From assembly GCF_014904745.1 (NCBI RefSeq), contig NZ_JACZCS010000044.1, positions 1 through 64,000 of the forward strand: DNA of 64,000 nucleotides, in the 5' to 3' direction. Below, piece after piece: positions 53,380 through 60,978 of the stretch. The DNA comes from Oricola nitratireducens. GTDB taxonomy: Bacteria; Pseudomonadota; Alphaproteobacteria; Rhizobiales; Rhizobiaceae. Each line of letters starts with the position of its first letter. The stretch's first letter is position 1. The position numbers and the translations under genes were made by a program. Below the pieces are notes generated by a model. The model was not told where the DNA came from. It saw only the letters and a list, made by a program, of their open reading frames with translations, and ran no database searches.

Positions 53380-56300
53380 ATGTGTGGCATCGCGGGATTC
53401 GTAACCGGCGACTTCGGACGAAGCCAGGCCGAAACCGGGTGGCTTGGCGCGCTCTCGGCGCAGGTGACCGCCATGCCCGAAGGGCTTGATGCGGTCGACA
53501 CGCTGCAAAAAGCCGTCGAGATGCTGGAGAAGCGGTTCGCCGACCTGATGTCGTTTGCCACCGGGACGGCGGTCGCCTTCGACGGCGATTTCCGCGCCAG
53601 GGTGATCGCGCTCGCCGACGCCTTCAGGGCGCAGACAGCGACGCTGACCGAACTGTCGAAGAAGGGCCGCACCGACCTCGACCCGCTGATCGAGAGCCTG
53701 CGCGACTATGAATGGCAGATCCGCGAGGAACTCGTTGCGCAGACGGACGAGGCGGTCTCTTTGATGCCGGGCGAGATGAACTCGCTCGACGGCAACGCGA
53801 TGAAGGTGGCGCTCGCCGCCGAACATGTGCTCCGGGCGAATGACCGGCTGGAAGTGCGCGGGCGCGATTCGGCGGGCATCGCCATCCATATCCTGATTCC
53901 GGAAGGGGCGCTCGACGCGTTGCCGGACGACCTGAAGTCCGACTTCGACGCGCGGCGCGCGACGCTGCATGCCGGCCATCTTTCGGTTTATCTGCACGAG
54001 AACGGCGGCGGCAACCGGACGCTGACCTTCGTCTACAAGACGGCCAATCTCGTCGGCCGGCTCGGCGACAACGGCGCCGCGCTGCGCGAGGCGATCCGCG
54101 GCGACCGGCTGTTGTGGGCGCTGGCAGGCGAAGCGAAACGGGCAAGCGTGCTGTCGCACACGCGCTGGGCGTCGCACGGCGTCATCTCGGTAGCCAACTG
54201 CCACCCGCACAATCCGTCGCTGAAACAGGATGAAACGAGCCAGACCGGCATCTCGCTGGGGGCCATGTATGCGCTGAACGGCGATGTCGACAACCATGTC
54301 GAACTGCTCGCCGAACTGGTGACCAACCGGCAGATGGCCATCGATCCGGCAATCACCACCGACGCCAAGATCATTCCGATCGCGCATCGCAGCGCGGGCG
54401 CCGATGCGGGCGACCTGCTCGACCGGTTCCGCACGGCGGTGCGCCGCCTCGACGGGTCGATCGCGGTGGGCAGCATCGACCCGAGCCAGCCGGGCGAAGC
54501 CTTTCTCGCGCAAAAAGGTTCCGGACAGGGCCTGCATGCCGCGCGGCTCGCCGACGGCTGGATGTTTGCCTCCGAGGTCTACGGGCTGTGCAACGTGGCG
54601 CGCTCGTCGTTCAACCTGGCGCGCTCGATCGCCGGAGGATCGGTGATCCGGCTTTCCGGCAATGCCGACGAACCGGAAATGCGCGGCGTCGCCGACGGCA
54701 CGGCCGTCGCCGTAAAGCCCGAGCCGATCCAGATCTTCGCACGCGACATCTATCGCGGCGCATTCGATTTCTATCTCGAAAAGGAAATCCATGACGGGCC
54801 GGAAAGCGTCGCCAAGACGTTGCGCGGACGCTACCGCCGCTCCGGCGGCCTGATCGCCTTCGACGATTTGCCGACCGATATCTGGGCGTCGATGCGCAAG
54901 GCGGTCGCGCGCGGCGTGTCGCGCGTCTACGTGATCGGCCAGGGCACCGCCGGCGTCGCCGCCGTGGGCATCGCGCATCTGATCGAGCGGGCGCTCGGCC
55001 GCGACACGCGGCTTTCCGTTCCGGTGCTGGCGCTGCGCTCGTCGGAAATGTCGGCCGAGATCGACGCCTACGACTTCCGCAACGCGCTGGTGATCGCTGT
55101 GTCGCAATCGGGCACGACGACCGACACCAACCGCGCCGTCGACCTGGCGCGCGAACGCGGCGCGACCATCCACGCCATCGTCAACCGGCGCAATTCCGAC
55201 CTGGTGCGCAAGGCGGATTCGGTGCTGTTCACCTCGGACGGGCGCGACGTGGAAATGTCCGTCGCCTCGACCAAAGCCTTCTATTCGCAGTTGACCGCCG
55301 GCAAGCTGACGGCGCTGTTCCTCGCCGATGCGCTCAACACGATGACCGATGTCGAGATCGCCTACGAGATGGGGGAACTGGAACGGCTACCGGGGCTGAT
55401 CGACCAAGTACTGGGCAAGGAAGAGCAGATCGCGGAATGCGCCAACACATTTGCGCCGCAGGCGCGCTACTGGGCGGTGACCGGCTCAGGCGTCAACCAC
55501 ATCGCGGCGCTGGAAATCCGCATCAAATTGTCGGAGCTCTGCTACAAGTCGATCCCGGTCGACTACACCGAGGACAAGAAACATATCGACCTGTCGACCG
55601 AGCCGCTGACGCTGGTCGTCGCCAACGACCTGCCCGGCGATCTCGTCGGCGACGTGGTCAAGGAAGTCGCGATCTTCAAGGCGCATAACGGCAAGCCGAT
55701 CGTCTTCGCCACCGAGGGCGCGGACGCCGATGCCTTTTCGGAATATGCCGAGCGGGTGATCGCGCTGCCGAAGATCGGCGGCGACCTCGCCTTCGTTCTG
55801 GCGACGGTGGCCGGCCACATTTTCGGCTTCCACGCGGCGCGCGCCATCGACCGGGCGGCGCAACTGCTGAAGACGATTCTCGCCGATCTCGGTCATGTCG
55901 CCATGGGGGACCCGGGCGCGGATACCGGCGCGCTGCTTGAAAAGCTCGATGCCTTCATCGACGAGGGCGCGGCCGGCGCCTTCAATTCGGGTCTCGGCGC
56001 CAGCGACCTCGCCACGCTGGCGAAGCTCGGCCGCAATCTCGGTCGCGCCAAGGATGCGGCGACGGCACGCGAAGTCGCCGGATCCGCGCTCGGCGCGGTG
56101 CGCCACATCTTCGAGGAAACGTCGCGGCCGATCGACACGATCCGCCACCAGGCCAAGACCGTCACCGTCGGCACCAGCCGCCCGGAAGACGCACTGTCGC
56201 CGGCGATCCGCGACAACCTGGCGGCGCTCGGCATTTCCGACTCGCGCCTGACCTTCGACAACCGCAAGATACTGGCCGCGATCTCTCGGCTTATCGACGA

Positions 56301-56763
56301 GATCGAGTGGACGGCGCTGCTGCAGGTCTCGCAGGGCAAGGACGGGCCGCGCGTTCAGCTTTCGGGCGCCGCGCCCTCGCCGGCGCTTTCGGCCTATGGC
56401 AGCCCTTGCAAGCCGCTCGGCGTGCTCGGCTCGACGCTCGACGACCACACGCTGCATGCCGGATTCCTCGGCGAGGCGGAGGTGATCGCGGTGCCGGTCA
56501 ACAACGCTTCCTATTCCGAGGTCGACGGGCTGGTGTGCTTCGCGGTCAAGCTGCAGGCGCATGCCTCGCGCGAACAGAAGACGGCGGCGATGCAGGCGCT
56601 CGGCACGTACAAGCCGGTGCTGCGCGAATGGGAACAGAGCTTCGGCGAGGACGCCGCGGCCGCGCTGGCGCGCCAGATCTCGCGCGAAAAGCCGGAAAAC
56701 GTGGTCTTCCGCCCGAAGGTTTTCGATCCCGCGCTCAGCCAGGACGAACGACAGAGCGCGTGA
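53380..56763 (+). CDS. oversized GlmS-like protein (glutamine amidotransferase plus two SIS domains, with insertion and C-terminal extension)
   Basis: The protein is 1127 residues, against about 610 for GlmS. It begins MCGIAGF with the class II amidotransferase Cys2. About 145 residues of helical sequence then separate this strand from RGRDSAGIAI, a distance of about 25 in GlmS. HTRWASHG (260-267), NGD (300-302) and D328 complete the glutaminase site. SIS domain 1 has VIGQGTAGV and SQSGTTTDT (575-583); SIS 2 has TGSGVNHIAALE and EDKKHIDL (731-738), matching the isomerase His loop. The GlmS C-tail lysine motif appears as AKTVTV (K926) but is followed by about 200 more residues. It is therefore a probable amide-transferring sugar-phosphate or related isomerase with an unknown acceptor. 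GGGGGA precedes the ATG. It is the first gene after the structured RNA. Confidence 0.85.
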   Translation: MCGIAGFVTGDFGRSQAETGWLGALSAQVTAMPEGLDAVDTLQKAVEMLEKRFADLMSFATGTAVAFDGDFRARVIALADAFRAQTATLTELSKKGRTDLDPLIESLRDYEWQIREELVAQTDEAVSLMPGEMNSLDGNAMKVALAAEHVLRANDRLEVRGRDSAGIAIHILIPEGALDALPDDLKSDFDARRATLHAGHLSVYLHENGGGNRTLTFVYKTANLVGRLGDNGAALREAIRGDRLLWALAGEAKRASVLSHTRWASHGVISVANCHPHNPSLKQDETSQTGISLGAMYALNGDVDNHVELLAELVTNRQMAIDPAITTDAKIIPIAHRSAGADAGDLLDRFRTAVRRLDGSIAVGSIDPSQPGEAFLAQKGSGQGLHAARLADGWMFASEVYGLCNVARSSFNLARSIAGGSVIRLSGNADEPEMRGVADGTAVAVKPEPIQIFARDIYRGAFDFYLEKEIHDGPESVAKTLRGRYRRSGGLIAFDDLPTDIWASMRKAVARGVSRVYVIGQGTAGVAAVGIAHLIERALGRDTRLSVPVLALRSSEMSAEIDAYDFRNALVIAVSQSGTTTDTNRAVDLARERGATIHAIVNRRNSDLVRKADSVLFTSDGRDVEMSVASTKAFYSQLTAGKLTALFLADALNTMTDVEIAYEMGELERLPGLIDQVLGKEEQIAECANTFAPQARYWAVTGSGVNHIAALEIRIKLSELCYKSIPVDYTEDKKHIDLSTEPLTLVVANDLPGDLVGDVVKEVAIFKAHNGKPIVFATEGADADAFSEYAERVIALPKIGGDLAFVLATVAGHIFGFHAARAIDRAAQLLKTILADLGHVAMGDPGADTGALLEKLDAFIDEGAAGAFNSGLGASDLATLAKLGRNLGRAKDAATAREVAGSALGAVRHIFEETSRPIDTIRHQAKTVTVGTSRPEDALSPAIRDNLAALGISDSRLTFDNRKILAAISRLIDEIEWTALLQVSQGKDGPRVQLSGAAPSPALSAYGSPCKPLGVLGSTLDDHTLHAGFLGEAEVIAVPVNNASYSEVDGLVCFAVKLQAHASREQKTAAMQALGTYKPVLREWEQSFGEDAAAALARQISREKPENVVFRPKVFDPALSQDERQSA

Positions 56764-56788: not shown

Positions 56789-57637
56789 TCAAAACGGACG
56801 GAAGGCGACCGTGTAGAGACGTCCCGAAAACTGCCGGCAAAGGTCCTCGATCACGTCTCCGATCGTCGGATGTTTCAGTACGCCAATGGTTCTTGAGATA
56901 TTGTACTCGCTCCTGCGGACCGTCATATCCGTCAAGATCGTCGGCACGGTGGCGGCCAGCGGATAGCCGGCCTCGAAGTGGATGGCCTTCAGGCCTTCGC
57001 GCGTCGGACCATATGCGGCAACCCCGTGCGGGCTGACGGCGAAGAACCGTAATTCGGCTTCGGGATTGTTCGCGAACGCGAGTTCGGAAAGCTGAATAGA
57101 GGTTGCGACATCGGCAAGGCTGGGAAGCGCAAACGCGACCGGCAACAATTCATGCCGAGGGATCTCGGCGGCGGGATAATCCAGCGGCAGTATCCCGTAC
57201 TCCCAACCGGCAGCCGCATAATATGTCTCCGGATGAAAGTGATAGATGTGGACAACCGTGTAGGTCTCGACGATGTGTTCCAGATAATCCGCGTCGACCT
57301 CGACCTCGGAATCGTCTGGCAGGGCCAGCTCATGGAAACCGACCTCGATCCAGGTTTCGATATCGGGGATGTAAGCCCATTGCTCTTCGAAACTGGACCG
57401 GCGGACGAGGCTCGCGATCTGCGTAATACCCGCTTCCTCACCCGTCCTGACCACGGTGCGGACTTCATTCGCGCTGTTGGTTTCCAGTGCCGGCAGTTCG
57501 CGATACGGCTTCTCGGATGGCGGGAGGTTCAAAGCGACCAGGTCGTCATGTTTCTGCGCGGATGCGACAGCGATTGCCCCTCCTAACACTAGAGCAGCGA
57601 CAATGGGGAGCCTTCCCGCTGTGTTTCCGCCGATCAT
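56789..57637 (-). CDS. secreted protein of unknown function with JAMM-like motif
   Basis: The protein is 282 residues with a signal peptide (about 1-27, AVASA-QK). A segment VVHIYHFHPETYY (H133, H135) followed by LPSLADVATS (S173, D176) resembles the His-x-His ... Ser-x-x-Asp order of JAMM/MPN metalloproteases, but the spacing is about 38 residues instead of about 10, and the upstream Glu is uncertain. The N- and C-terminal thirds are not recognised. It converges on the GlmS-like gene and is divergent from the 1016-residue gene. A periplasmic location follows from the signal; catalytic activity is only a suggestion. Confidence 0.6.
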   Translation of the reverse strand: MIGGNTAGRLPIVAALVLGGAIAVASAQKHDDLVALNLPPSEKPYRELPALETNSANEVRTVVRTGEEAGITQIASLVRRSSFEEQWAYIPDIETWIEVGFHELALPDDSEVEVDADYLEHIVETYTVVHIYHFHPETYYAAAGWEYGILPLDYPAAEIPRHELLPVAFALPSLADVATSIQLSELAFANNPEAELRFFAVSPHGVAAYGPTREGLKAIHFEAGYPLAATVPTILTDMTVRRSEYNISRTIGVLKHPTIGDVIEDLCRQFSGRLYTVAFRPF

Positions 57638-57927: not shown

Positions 57928-60900
57928 ATGAACGAGACGCATGACCAATACATGGCCGCGGATGCGTCCATCTTCGAGTCGATTCCGCGCCGCGCCGATA
58001 TTCTGGGCGGAGCCAACACCGGCAACACCGCGTTGGCGACCCGGCTGGAGATGAACCTGCCGGGAAGCCTCGCCGACGCGCCACCGACGCTGGCGTTCGA
58101 CCGGGTGCGCGAGGTCGACCTGCCCTGGGCCGCGCTGATCGAGGCGATGGGCCGCCACAAGGACGGGGCGATGACCGGCACGGCGCCGCTGCGGTCCTAT
58201 TTCGAACGGTCATGGTGGGACGGAGACCGCCCGAAACCCGCCGCGGAAGACCTGCAAAAACTGGTCGACGACGGATTGATCACGATCCTGCCCGGATCCG
58301 GCGACAACGCCGCGACCTTCTTCAGCTACGGCGAAGTCACCGAGGACGACAAGACCGTGCCGAAAGGCGAGCCGGTCACCGCGGGCATCGTCCTCCGGCA
58401 CGGCGTCTCGGGACGCCACTACCTGATCGAGACGACGGAGGAGGACGGCAAGGCAGGGGATGTCGCGACGCCAGAGGGCTATGCCGATTTCTGGGAGAAC
58501 CGGGCCGAGGCCGCAACGATGGTCTTCGCGTCGGAAGCCGACGTCGCCGACAGCCAGACCCGGTTCGAGGAACTGGATCTGCGCGCAATCTTTATCGAGC
58601 GCCGCTTTCGCGAATTGAAGATCATGCAGGAAGTCGTGACGGCGGCGAGCGCGAAGGCGGCCGGCGCGTTGGACGGCATTCTCGAACAGGGGGCCGGCCC
58701 GGACCTCAATTTCGAGGCGATGGACGCCGTGCAGGCGCGCTATGTCAGCATCCGCCTCGGACCGTACAGGATCCGGCGGAGCCTGCTGCAGTTGAAGCGG
58801 CAGGCGGCGCAGATGGGCTATCTGCTTTTTCTCGGCGACGAGCCGGACATGAGGGTGACCACGCCGGCCACGGAAAGCGAACCGGCCGTCTACGGGATGA
58901 GCGTCAAGTTTCCCGATGGCGAAGACAAGGACGTGGTGGCGGGCGAGCTCTACACGACGTTCAAGCGGGCATGCGCCTACACGGTGACGCACGAGAAATC
59001 GATCGTTCGCAATATCGGCGAGAGCATCGTCTACGGCTTCAAGCGGCTGTTCGGCGGCAAGACCGAGAAGCGGACGACGACCTATACGGAAACCAGGTCC
59101 AAGATCGTCAAGGACTACCAGAAGGTCGACACGCTGACGGACCCGCTCAGCAAACGGGTACTGGAAATTCGCTCGCAAGGCCGGGAAGTGTTCGTCTTCA
59201 ACGAAACGCCGGCGGGCTACCTGACGGATGACGGCATGTCGCTCGCCGGTGTGATGACGCGGTGCGACCTTGACGAGGATTACCGGCGCAAATGCGTGGC
59301 GATGCTGCCGGTCTACGAACAGGGCTTTTCCATCGAACGCCCCGTCGTCGCCTACAACATCTTCGAGCGGCCCTTGCCCGGCATCCTGCCGAGCCGGCTG
59401 CCGCGCCTCTTCATCGAGGAGGCGCTCAGCTACCGCACCGCATGGAAGGGAACCGAGCTCGGCGAACTGGTGAACGCGATCAACCTCGCGCCGGGCGAGG
59501 AGCGCGAAATCAGCATCACCCAATCCTTCCAGGAGGAGCGTGCAAGCAGCGAGACGCGCACCTCGGTCAGCGAGCTCAATTCCTCGTCGACCACCGACAT
59601 GGCGACCGAGATGGAAACGATCGCGCGCACGGAAAACGAGTTCAGCGCCCATGCGGAAGGAAGCCAGGAGGCATCGGCCGGAGGCCCGCTCGGCGGCGCG
59701 ATCACCGGATCGGTGTCATCGAAATTCAGTTACGGTGCGTCCGACACGCTGAAGAGCTTCAACCAGTCGATGAACAAGGTGGCCAAGAAGGCGGCGACCT
59801 CGATCAGCAAGAAGGCCCGGCTCGACGTCAGCACCACGAGCAGCACGACGACGACCGTGTCGACCAGCGACAGCACGGTCATCAGGATGTCGAACATCAA
59901 CAAGGGCCGGACGCTGAACCTGATGTTCTACCGGGTCTACAACCGCTATGCTACGGGGCTGTTCGTCGAGACTATCAGCTTCGGGGTGACGTCGGGCGTG
60001 GAGCTGATCGCGGGCAGCGGCGTCTACGAGACCCGCACCTTCCGGCCGGACCGGATCGGCGAGATGCTCGACATGTTCAAGCGCACGCCGTTGCCGTTCA
60101 ACAACGCGCCGTCAGCGATGGCGCAGTACCAGAGCACGATCCTCGACACGGTCCTGCGGCAACTGGAAATGGAATATCTGGCTGCTCCGGCGCAAGACGG
60201 CGCGGGCGAAGAGGACGCGGCGGCCTGGGGCAATGGCGATACCGGGCCGCTCAGCGCCTTGAAGGCGCCGGAAACGCTCGGCGGGTCCAGCAATGTCGTG
60301 AAGATGGCAAGCCACCTGGCGGAAACGATCTTCGGGCCGGCGCGCGCCGCGCCCGCGGCGAAAAAGGGCCTCATGAGCGCCGCGCCGGTCGACCAGGCGG
60401 CCCTCGACAAACGGATCGCACAGGTCGAAGCCGGCCTGCAGGAGATCGAACTGGCGTCGGCGCCGCTCGGCGGCGACACGGGCAAAGGCTCGGACCTGCT
60501 GATCGCATCCGGCGGCCTCTATCTCGACGCGCTCGTCGGATCGCGCCCGAGCACCGAGCCCTATTCCGAAGAGATGCGGGCGCAGGAAGTCCGCAAGAGC
60601 GCGGCAGAAGTCGTGCGGGCGGAGGCCGAGGCGCAATATTCGCTCGCCCAGGCGCGCCGAATCGCCCGCATGCCGGCGGGCGGCAATCCTGCCGGCAACC
60701 TGCTGACCGGCGTTCATGTGCTGGAGGAGCCGGGGCTAAACCTGCTGACGCTGGGCTTCCTGCTGCCATTGCCGAGCGGACAATGGGTCGTCTGCGTCGA
60801 CGGCGAACCGGTGACCGACGGGGAGATCCCGCAGGATCAGTTGCAGCGCACGAGCGTCGTCCTGAAACTGTCGCGCCGGCCACCGCATCGCAAGCCGGAC

Positions 60901-60978
60901 TGGGCGAAGGCCCCGGACCTGATGCGGCGGGTGACCGTGCGCAACACGCAAACGCAGGACGAGATCGCGCCGGTCTGA
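57928..60978 (+). CDS. large protein of unknown function (1016 residues)
   Basis: No signal peptide or membrane helix is visible, so it is probably cytoplasmic or exported by a dedicated route. Residues 1-250 are acidic alpha/beta sequence. About 265-530 include basic patches (KRLFGGKTEKRTTTYTETRS near 372-391) and APGEEREISITQSFQEERA (521-539). From about 535 to 660 it is Ser/Thr-rich with SSTTTTVSTSDSTV, flanked by Lys-rich NKVAKKAATSISKKA; this could be a long coiled or fibrous stalk. RTLNLMFYRVYNRYATGLFVE (661-681) then starts a more ordered region, and residues 860-1016 contain charged helical segments and a C-terminal VVLKLSRRPPHRKPDW. I do not recognise a family. It is a single-gene unit next to the aldehyde dehydrogenase operon but convergent with it. 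A structural or surface-associated role is only a guess. Confidence 0.7.
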   Translation: MNETHDQYMAADASIFESIPRRADILGGANTGNTALATRLEMNLPGSLADAPPTLAFDRVREVDLPWAALIEAMGRHKDGAMTGTAPLRSYFERSWWDGDRPKPAAEDLQKLVDDGLITILPGSGDNAATFFSYGEVTEDDKTVPKGEPVTAGIVLRHGVSGRHYLIETTEEDGKAGDVATPEGYADFWENRAEAATMVFASEADVADSQTRFEELDLRAIFIERRFRELKIMQEVVTAASAKAAGALDGILEQGAGPDLNFEAMDAVQARYVSIRLGPYRIRRSLLQLKRQAAQMGYLLFLGDEPDMRVTTPATESEPAVYGMSVKFPDGEDKDVVAGELYTTFKRACAYTVTHEKSIVRNIGESIVYGFKRLFGGKTEKRTTTYTETRSKIVKDYQKVDTLTDPLSKRVLEIRSQGREVFVFNETPAGYLTDDGMSLAGVMTRCDLDEDYRRKCVAMLPVYEQGFSIERPVVAYNIFERPLPGILPSRLPRLFIEEALSYRTAWKGTELGELVNAINLAPGEEREISITQSFQEERASSETRTSVSELNSSSTTDMATEMETIARTENEFSAHAEGSQEASAGGPLGGAITGSVSSKFSYGASDTLKSFNQSMNKVAKKAATSISKKARLDVSTTSSTTTTVSTSDSTVIRMSNINKGRTLNLMFYRVYNRYATGLFVETISFGVTSGVELIAGSGVYETRTFRPDRIGEMLDMFKRTPLPFNNAPSAMAQYQSTILDTVLRQLEMEYLAAPAQDGAGEEDAAAWGNGDTGPLSALKAPETLGGSSNVVKMASHLAETIFGPARAAPAAKKGLMSAAPVDQAALDKRIAQVEAGLQEIELASAPLGGDTGKGSDLLIASGGLYLDALVGSRPSTEPYSEEMRAQEVRKSAAEVVRAEAEAQYSLAQARRIARMPAGGNPAGNLLTGVHVLEEPGLNLLTLGFLLPLPSGQWVVCVDGEPVTDGEIPQDQLQRTSVVLKLSRRPPHRKPDWAKAPDLMRRVTVRNTQTQDEIAPV

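Follow-up and report, generated by a model that had tools for sequence, protein, structure and literature searches.

How does Oricola nitratireducens make glucosamine-6-phosphate? The question is raised by a 64,000-nucleotide stretch of its genome (the window), in which positions 53380..56763 of the forward strand form an open reading frame (ORF) for a GlmS-like protein of 1127 residues plus its stop codon. GlmS catalyses the step with which amino sugar synthesis for the cell wall begins. The long form misses the curated cut-off for the family, so that genomes carrying it appear to lack this step. Its reaction, its displacement of another enzyme and its regulation are inferred here from comparison, and we conclude, with a probability of about 0.87, that it is the cell's only glucosamine-6-phosphate synthase and belongs to a distinct long clade that displaced the canonical GlmS of 608 residues.

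The protein starts with MCGIAG and carries the glutaminase and isomerase signatures Cys2, HTRWASHG (residues 260-267), NGD (300-302), EDKKHIDL (731-738) and AKTVTV (925-930). The GlmS-like assignment made in a preliminary description of this DNA is borne out by the ORF, by these motifs and by homologues at 39 loci. Thirty-five of the latter encode proteins of 1115-1248 residues that align with the Oricola protein over their length. A chance ORF or a fusion artefact is ruled out by the same 39 loci. Two Pfam families exceed their cut-offs (SIS, 67.5 versus 25 bits; GATase_6, 30.8 versus 27 bits) and they follow the GlmS order, an N-terminal-nucleophile glutaminase domain and then a SIS isomerase domain. 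The best PDB matches are GlmS/GFAT enzymes both by sequence (E. coli GlmS, human GFAT-1) and by fold. The preliminary description had suggested comparing a predicted structure with GlmS. In an AlphaFold model built from a 36-row alignment (the Oricola protein and the 35 above; the truncated or broken L019, L043, L047 and L050 were excluded), the core matches E. coli GlmS and the extra regions are predicted to be folded; the mean predicted local distance difference test score (pLDDT) of the whole model is 84. The top Foldseek match in the PDB is E. coli GlmS 2j6h (E 2.7e-28; template-modelling (TM) score 0.77 by target and 0.44 by query; root-mean-square deviation (rmsd) 5.0). Low pLDDT values are found at residues 729-736, around the residue that serves the partner subunit in GlmS, and at 918-935 in the C-tail; the model, a monomer free of substrate, may explain both.

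Selected positions of E. coli GlmS were compared in 16 long and 17 canonical rows. All 16 long rows are identical to E. coli at Cys1, Arg26, Gly27, Asp29, Ser30, Arg73, Trp74, His86, Asn98, Gly99, Asp123, Thr302, Ser347, Gln348, Ser349, Thr352, Val399, Ser401, Lys485, Glu488, His504, Ala602, Lys603 and Val605. According to PMC7948480, Lys485 and Glu488 are central residues in the isomerase site, and the ammonia channel is formed by Trp74 and the C-tail. By homology, Cys2 would free ammonia from glutamine; the isomerase domain would receive this ammonia and, by means of K716, E719, H735 and K926 of the C-tail, convert fructose-6-phosphate into the glucosamine-6-phosphate that supplies GlmM and GlmU.

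The Oricola assembly is 99.99% complete in 66 contigs. A TIGR01135 search of it returns no match over the cut-off, the long gene being the best at 208 versus 418 bits, while all 14 control genomes have one. The preliminary description had held that its idea would fail if the genome had no other glmS and the protein made glucosamine-6-phosphate normally; of these two, the first agrees with this search, which found no other glmS. In the order, of which 297 genomes were sampled, canonical glmS (threshold 1e-120) is present in 283 (248 of the 254 of good quality); Oricola is among the 14 without it, and is alone in the sample in having the long protein. GlmM and GlmU are over their cut-offs in the Oricola genome. 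NagB was not detected there, the sole PF01182 match being a 6-phosphogluconolactonase (TIGR01198 over cut-off). Four SIS proteins are found: the long protein and three that look like KpsF/KdsD (which exceeds the TIGR00393 cut-off), an RpiR-type regulator (HexR is its best match, below cut-off) and GmhA (193.9 versus 209.5 bits). With no other GlmS or NagB detected, and three further SIS proteins that resemble other families, we therefore see no alternative source of glucosamine-6-phosphate in this genome.

The place where canonical glmS would be expected can be located. In 12 glmS loci of relatives, selected by hand, the order glmU-glmS-recG occurs in 8, glmS and recG being 0.8-3.9 kb apart; glmU is adjacent in 9 and recG present in 9, and neither is found in two (L130 and L136), whose genomes each carry two glmS copies. 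Oricola keeps mfd, recG and glmU, and the ends of its recG and glmU frames share 4 bases (L129, 7274-7277), leaving no room for glmS; the long gene lies on a different contig from this junction. The junction would be a clear instance in which a presumably essential gene was displaced.

The long form is scattered. It is found in 6 of 151 near relatives, which are all six members of the genus searched, in none of the other 145, and in 3 of 378 genomes across the phylum. The 39 loci come from Oricola, Ahrensia, Roseitalea and their kin, Aquimixticola, Rhizobium lemnae, Magnetococcales, Niveispirillum, Nitrospirillum, Azospirillum, Desulfomonile and other desulfobacterial records, and Microthrix and other actinobacterial records. 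This patchy spread suggests transfer between phyla. Thirty-seven of the 39 genomes show no glmS over the cut-off, many of them metagenome-assembled genomes (MAGs); among the 19 records without MAG in the title, only Rhizobium lemnae has both forms. Of 322 plasmid records matched, none has a single place covering 80% of the query; the ten matches listed cover 60-68% of it and nine of these are annotated glmS.

A replacement pattern outside Oricola is seen in the Acidimicrobiia. In a sample of 119 genomes, the long form occurs in 48 and the canonical form in 66, no genome has both, and 5 have neither (this last number is inferred); the Fisher p is 5e-28, which overstates the case since the test treats related genomes as independent. 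Three of the 48 long forms are only pieces at contig ends (G802, G853 and G858). Ten long loci, taken from the best-scoring of the 48, and ten of the 66 canonical loci were compared. All ten long loci have rplM, rpsI and glmM upstream on the same strand, glmM lying within 360 bases of the long gene in nine and 2.5 kb off in one; downstream, acpS is present in nine (one 2.5 kb off) and nnrE in nine. Around canonical glmS, rplM, rpsI and glmM are upstream in seven, with glmM within 750 bases, and acpS and nnrE follow in five and six, respectively; two loci have none of these neighbours. NCBIfam typing identified glmM in L039-L041, rplM and rpsI in L039 and L040, acpS in L040 and L041 and an nnrE-type gene in L039, L040 and L042. 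The long form would fill the apparent glmS gap in 48 of the 119 genomes. The earlier statement that gene context gives no pathway holds for the window and fails for these relatives, which place the long gene after glmM.

A tree of the isomerase core was built from 25 of the 36 long sequences, 17 canonical ones and 10 isomerase-only ones, after removal of four duplicate canonical rows. It resolves three groups: the long form as one clade (100/100), the isomerase-only proteins (100/100) and the canonical enzymes (89/94). The stem of the long clade measures 5.26 changes per column, which leaves the position of the root unsure, and long branches meet in the tree, including those of isomerase-only and long rows. 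Mean core identity is 62.5% within the long form, 28.5% between long and canonical, 28.1% between canonical and isomerase-only and 20.8% between long and isomerase-only sequences. In this tree the long form appears to be a separate lineage rather than a recent elongation of a local GlmS; fast change along the stem or a misplaced root is possible. Its GATase_6 domain and the separate, fully supported clades place it outside the stand-alone SIS isomerases/deaminases.

Several observations weigh against the long protein being the synthase that displaced GlmS. The best-matching models are GlmS models and the scores lie far under their cut-offs (PRK00331, 230 versus 381 bits; TIGR01135, 215 versus 418 with the protein alone). 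Every one of the 16 long rows has Ser in place of Thr76 and Ala in place of Ser303, and His77 is variable; of the 17 canonical rows, one also has Ala in place of Ser303. Canonical cores are no closer to the long form than to the isomerase-only paralogues. Both forms occur in 2 of the 39 genomes, Rhizobium lemnae and one Desulfomonile MAG, and 3 of the 10 canonical Acidimicrobiia loci lack a glmM neighbour. Finally, 13 further genomes of the order sample and 5 of the 119 Acidimicrobiia lack both forms at the thresholds applied, and absence of glmS alone is therefore no proof of replacement. The 13 (for example G042, G085, G093 and G314) include incomplete genomes, some that are 97-99% complete and several of 0.9-1.4 Mb; the five Acidimicrobiia (G812, G815, G835, G851 and G870) may be incomplete genomes or carry a third form.

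Compared with E. coli GlmS the long protein has four extra segments, residues 12-140, 173-250, 823-914 and 935-1127; their boundaries are our own choice, drawn from the alignment to that enzyme. The preliminary description had recognized the first and the last, which are real (129 and 193 residues, respectively), and had missed the two others. All features lie on the forward strand. The first glutaminase-domain strand with the nucleophile Cys2 (residues 1-11, 53380..53412) is followed by insert 1 (residues 12-140, 53413..53799), helical by prediction, in which D109 and W112 are invariant in the 36 rows. Residues 141-172 (53800..53895) return to the glutaminase domain with the VRGRDSAG motif. 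Insert 2 (residues 173-250, 53896..54129) lies inside the amidotransferase domain before HTRWASHG, aligns in part with E. coli GlmS and includes a conserved FVYKxANLIGRLGDN. The remainder of the glutaminase domain (residues 251-450, 54130..54729), supported by Pfam and alignment, carries HTRWASHG, NGD and Asp328. The isomerase (SIS) domain (residues 451-822, 54730..55845), defined by Pfam, GlmS models, alignment and Foldseek, includes SQSGTTTDT, VASTKAF, K716, E719 and H735. Insert 3 (residues 823-914, 55846..56121) consists of predicted helices leading from the last isomerase helix to the C-tail (residues 915-934, 56122..56181), where K926 is the equivalent of E. coli Lys603. This lysine lies near a free C-terminus in GlmS; here the tail is internal, and 193 residues follow it as a C-terminal extension (residues 935-1127, 56182..56760), an alpha/beta domain predicted to fold alone and weakly GAF-like.

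Are these segments kept for a function? Across ten distant relatives, including Desulfomonile and Acidimicrobiia, their length is 91-100% preserved, but identity drops to 12-50% in the C-terminal extension and 13-43% in insert 1; the C-tail stays at 75-100% identity. We therefore regard the extra segments as retained elements and not as debris. Ratios of nonsynonymous to synonymous differences (pN/pS) between Oricola and four relatives of the same genus (L012-L015) are below 1 in all of the extra segments (insert 1, 0.47-0.58; insert 2, 0.42-0.50; insert 3, 0.20-0.40; extension, 0.26-0.44), against 0.14-0.23 in the isomerase core. Ten-residue pLDDT means range from 67 to 96 in the inserts and the extension, except in blocks beside the C-tail and in the last few residues. 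The extension reaches 92.5 when modelled alone, and G1014, G1028 and P1039 are invariant in it in the 36-row alignment.

The affinities of this extension are faint. Foldseek against the PDB gives no match at E <=0.001; the best is 1.8e-3, with GAF-domain probabilities of up to 0.98. GAF appears in the titles at ranks 2, 3, 4, 7 and 14, and in 8 of the 50 matches listed, to which can be added 3e0y and methionine sulfoxide reductases, which we take to be GAF folds. Other matches are to LOV, IclR, a sporulation-kinase sensor and unrelated proteins. By sequence, only two PDB matches were obtained (E 0.58 and 0.85), and no significant Pfam family was found in the 37 members scanned (an alignment with L019 and L043 restored and L047, L049 and L050 absent). 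A PT-VENN match (best 0.0044, in 7 of the 37 members) was taken as chance. We consider the extension to be a separate domain in the models, weakly GAF-like and nothing more specific. A regulatory role, as proposed in the preliminary description, is plausible for a domain so predicted; the other acceptor or pathway suggested there finds no support, given that no other glmS was found in the genome, that the catalytic residues match, that the two forms exclude each other in the Acidimicrobiia sample and that the long gene there lies after glmM.

Regulation could operate through the C-tail. In ordinary GlmS the tail is a free, mobile end; here it would be an internal linker between helical insert 3 and the possibly GAF-like C-domain. 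As its start is tied to the helical insert and its end to the domain, these might control when the tail closes and thereby seals the ammonia channel, so that insert 3 and the C-domain would gate ammonia transfer, the signal most likely being a small molecule. Known controls of GlmS and GFAT include a riboswitch, a small RNA and UDP-N-acetylglucosamine (UDP-GlcNAc). In a bolder version, which we put forward tentatively and hold to be rather unlikely as a whole, the long form would be a second class of glucosamine-6-phosphate synthase, separated long ago and equipped with its own sensor. The C-tail would be clamped at both ends, and the GAF-like domain would read a metabolite and, by pulling directly on the tail, gate ammonia channelling, replacing the riboswitch, small-RNA and UDP-GlcNAc controls; the class would have passed from phylum to phylum and taken the place of the normal enzyme on more than one occasion.

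The likeliest of the alternative explanations concerns this regulatory part only. The long protein might be a glucosamine-6-phosphate synthase whose extra segments are passive structure, serving stability or oligomer contacts, a view to which we give somewhat less than even odds. The fast sequence drift of the extension agrees with it, as does the weakness of the GAF-like resemblance: the first four Foldseek ranks have TM scores by query of 0.31-0.35 and rmsd values of 10-14, a poor superposition, and Pfam GAF is not matched at E 0.1 in any of the 37 members. Insert 1 is the least constrained part of the protein. The largely preserved length and the pN/pS values below 1 argue the other way. 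So do the predicted autonomous fold of the C-domain and its three invariant residues, although all of this is compatible with a passive role.

A second alternative is that the long protein is a paralogue aminating another keto sugar phosphate, for a special polysaccharide, while glucosamine-6-phosphate comes from elsewhere. The Thr76 and Ser303 substitutions, which lie near the glutamine and phosphate sites, could be read in this way, as could the two genomes with both forms. A side role is possible in Rhizobium lemnae, where a PF01182 gene adjoins the long gene and a ParB-type gene is in the vicinity. However, no other GlmS and no NagB were detected in the Oricola genome, and in Acidimicrobiia the two forms do not co-occur, share a locus and have glmM as neighbour. 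Because of this missing alternative source and lack of co-occurrence we rejected a different-substrate amidotransferase as the principal explanation and consider it improbable. That a canonical glmS is present and was missed in a draft of 66 contigs is highly improbable, given the completeness of the assembly, the lack of any match over the cut-off in the four relatives L012-L015 and the abutting recG and glmU on one contig where relatives carry glmS.

The surroundings of the long gene in the window bring little pathway information. One protein that combines transglycosylase and transpeptidase domains is encoded 5.6 kb upstream and an M20 peptidase adjoins. Also adjoining, on the reverse strand (56789..57637), is a gene for a 282-residue protein whose N-terminus reads as signal-like and which has no Pfam match at 1e-3; a 1016-residue protein encoded at 57928..60978 on the forward strand likewise has none at that threshold. 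Oricola, Ahrensia and Roseitalea relatives have a neighbour family in common, whose member at L014:13389-15677 combines a mannose-1-phosphate guanylyltransferase-like part with a mannose isomerase/N-acylglucosamine 2-epimerase-like part. In Rhizobium lemnae (L026:5457-14591) the long gene follows the PF01182 gene, of NagB/phosphogluconolactonase type, and is itself followed by TPR, nucleotidyltransferase and APH-type genes; the ParB-type gene is close by, and this region is perhaps a mobile sugar cluster. In Salidesulfovibrio brasiliensis (L047:10001-12818) the homologue is interrupted in frame, and the genome has two partial matches with open frames of 839 and 680 residues.

What is new here is the architecture and the probable displacement; the GlmS-type chemistry is known. 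Among the openly licensed papers listed by literature searches, none describes a long or displaced GlmS, judged by titles and abstract openings. Among known systems, stand-alone isomerase paralogues, putatively NagB-II/AgaS-like, resemble the long form in matching the isomerase part of the GlmS model; they differ in having no glutaminase domain in the matched stretch and in forming a separate clade. GAF sensor domains resemble the C-terminal extension in that 5 of the first 14 Foldseek matches bear GAF in their title, and differ in the lack of any sequence-level match, the low TM scores and the high rmsd. Human GFAT-1 and GFAT-2 are likewise GlmS-type enzymes with an extra segment, and extra segments of GFAT are tied to regulation in PMC7948480 and PMC8041777. 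Unlike the folded inserts predicted for the long form, the human extra sequence is of about 46 residues and is treated as an unstructured loop in PMC7948480, and the GFAT-1 C-tail is the C-terminus itself (residues 670-681, PMC8041777). Canonical GlmS (TIGR01135; E. coli, PDB 2j6h) is also among the closest systems. It shares with the long form the succession of glutaminase and SIS isomerase domains, equivalents of Cys1, Lys485, Glu488, His504 and Lys603, and, in Acidimicrobiia, the same operon position. The long form differs from it in being nearly twice as long as the E. coli-type enzyme, in its three inserts, in a score below the family cut-off, in an isomerase core only 28.5% identical and in a C-tail that is followed by a 193-residue domain. 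This tail, which seals the ammonia channel in GlmS, is here internal and tied to extra domains, and offers a natural test of how the tail controls channelling.

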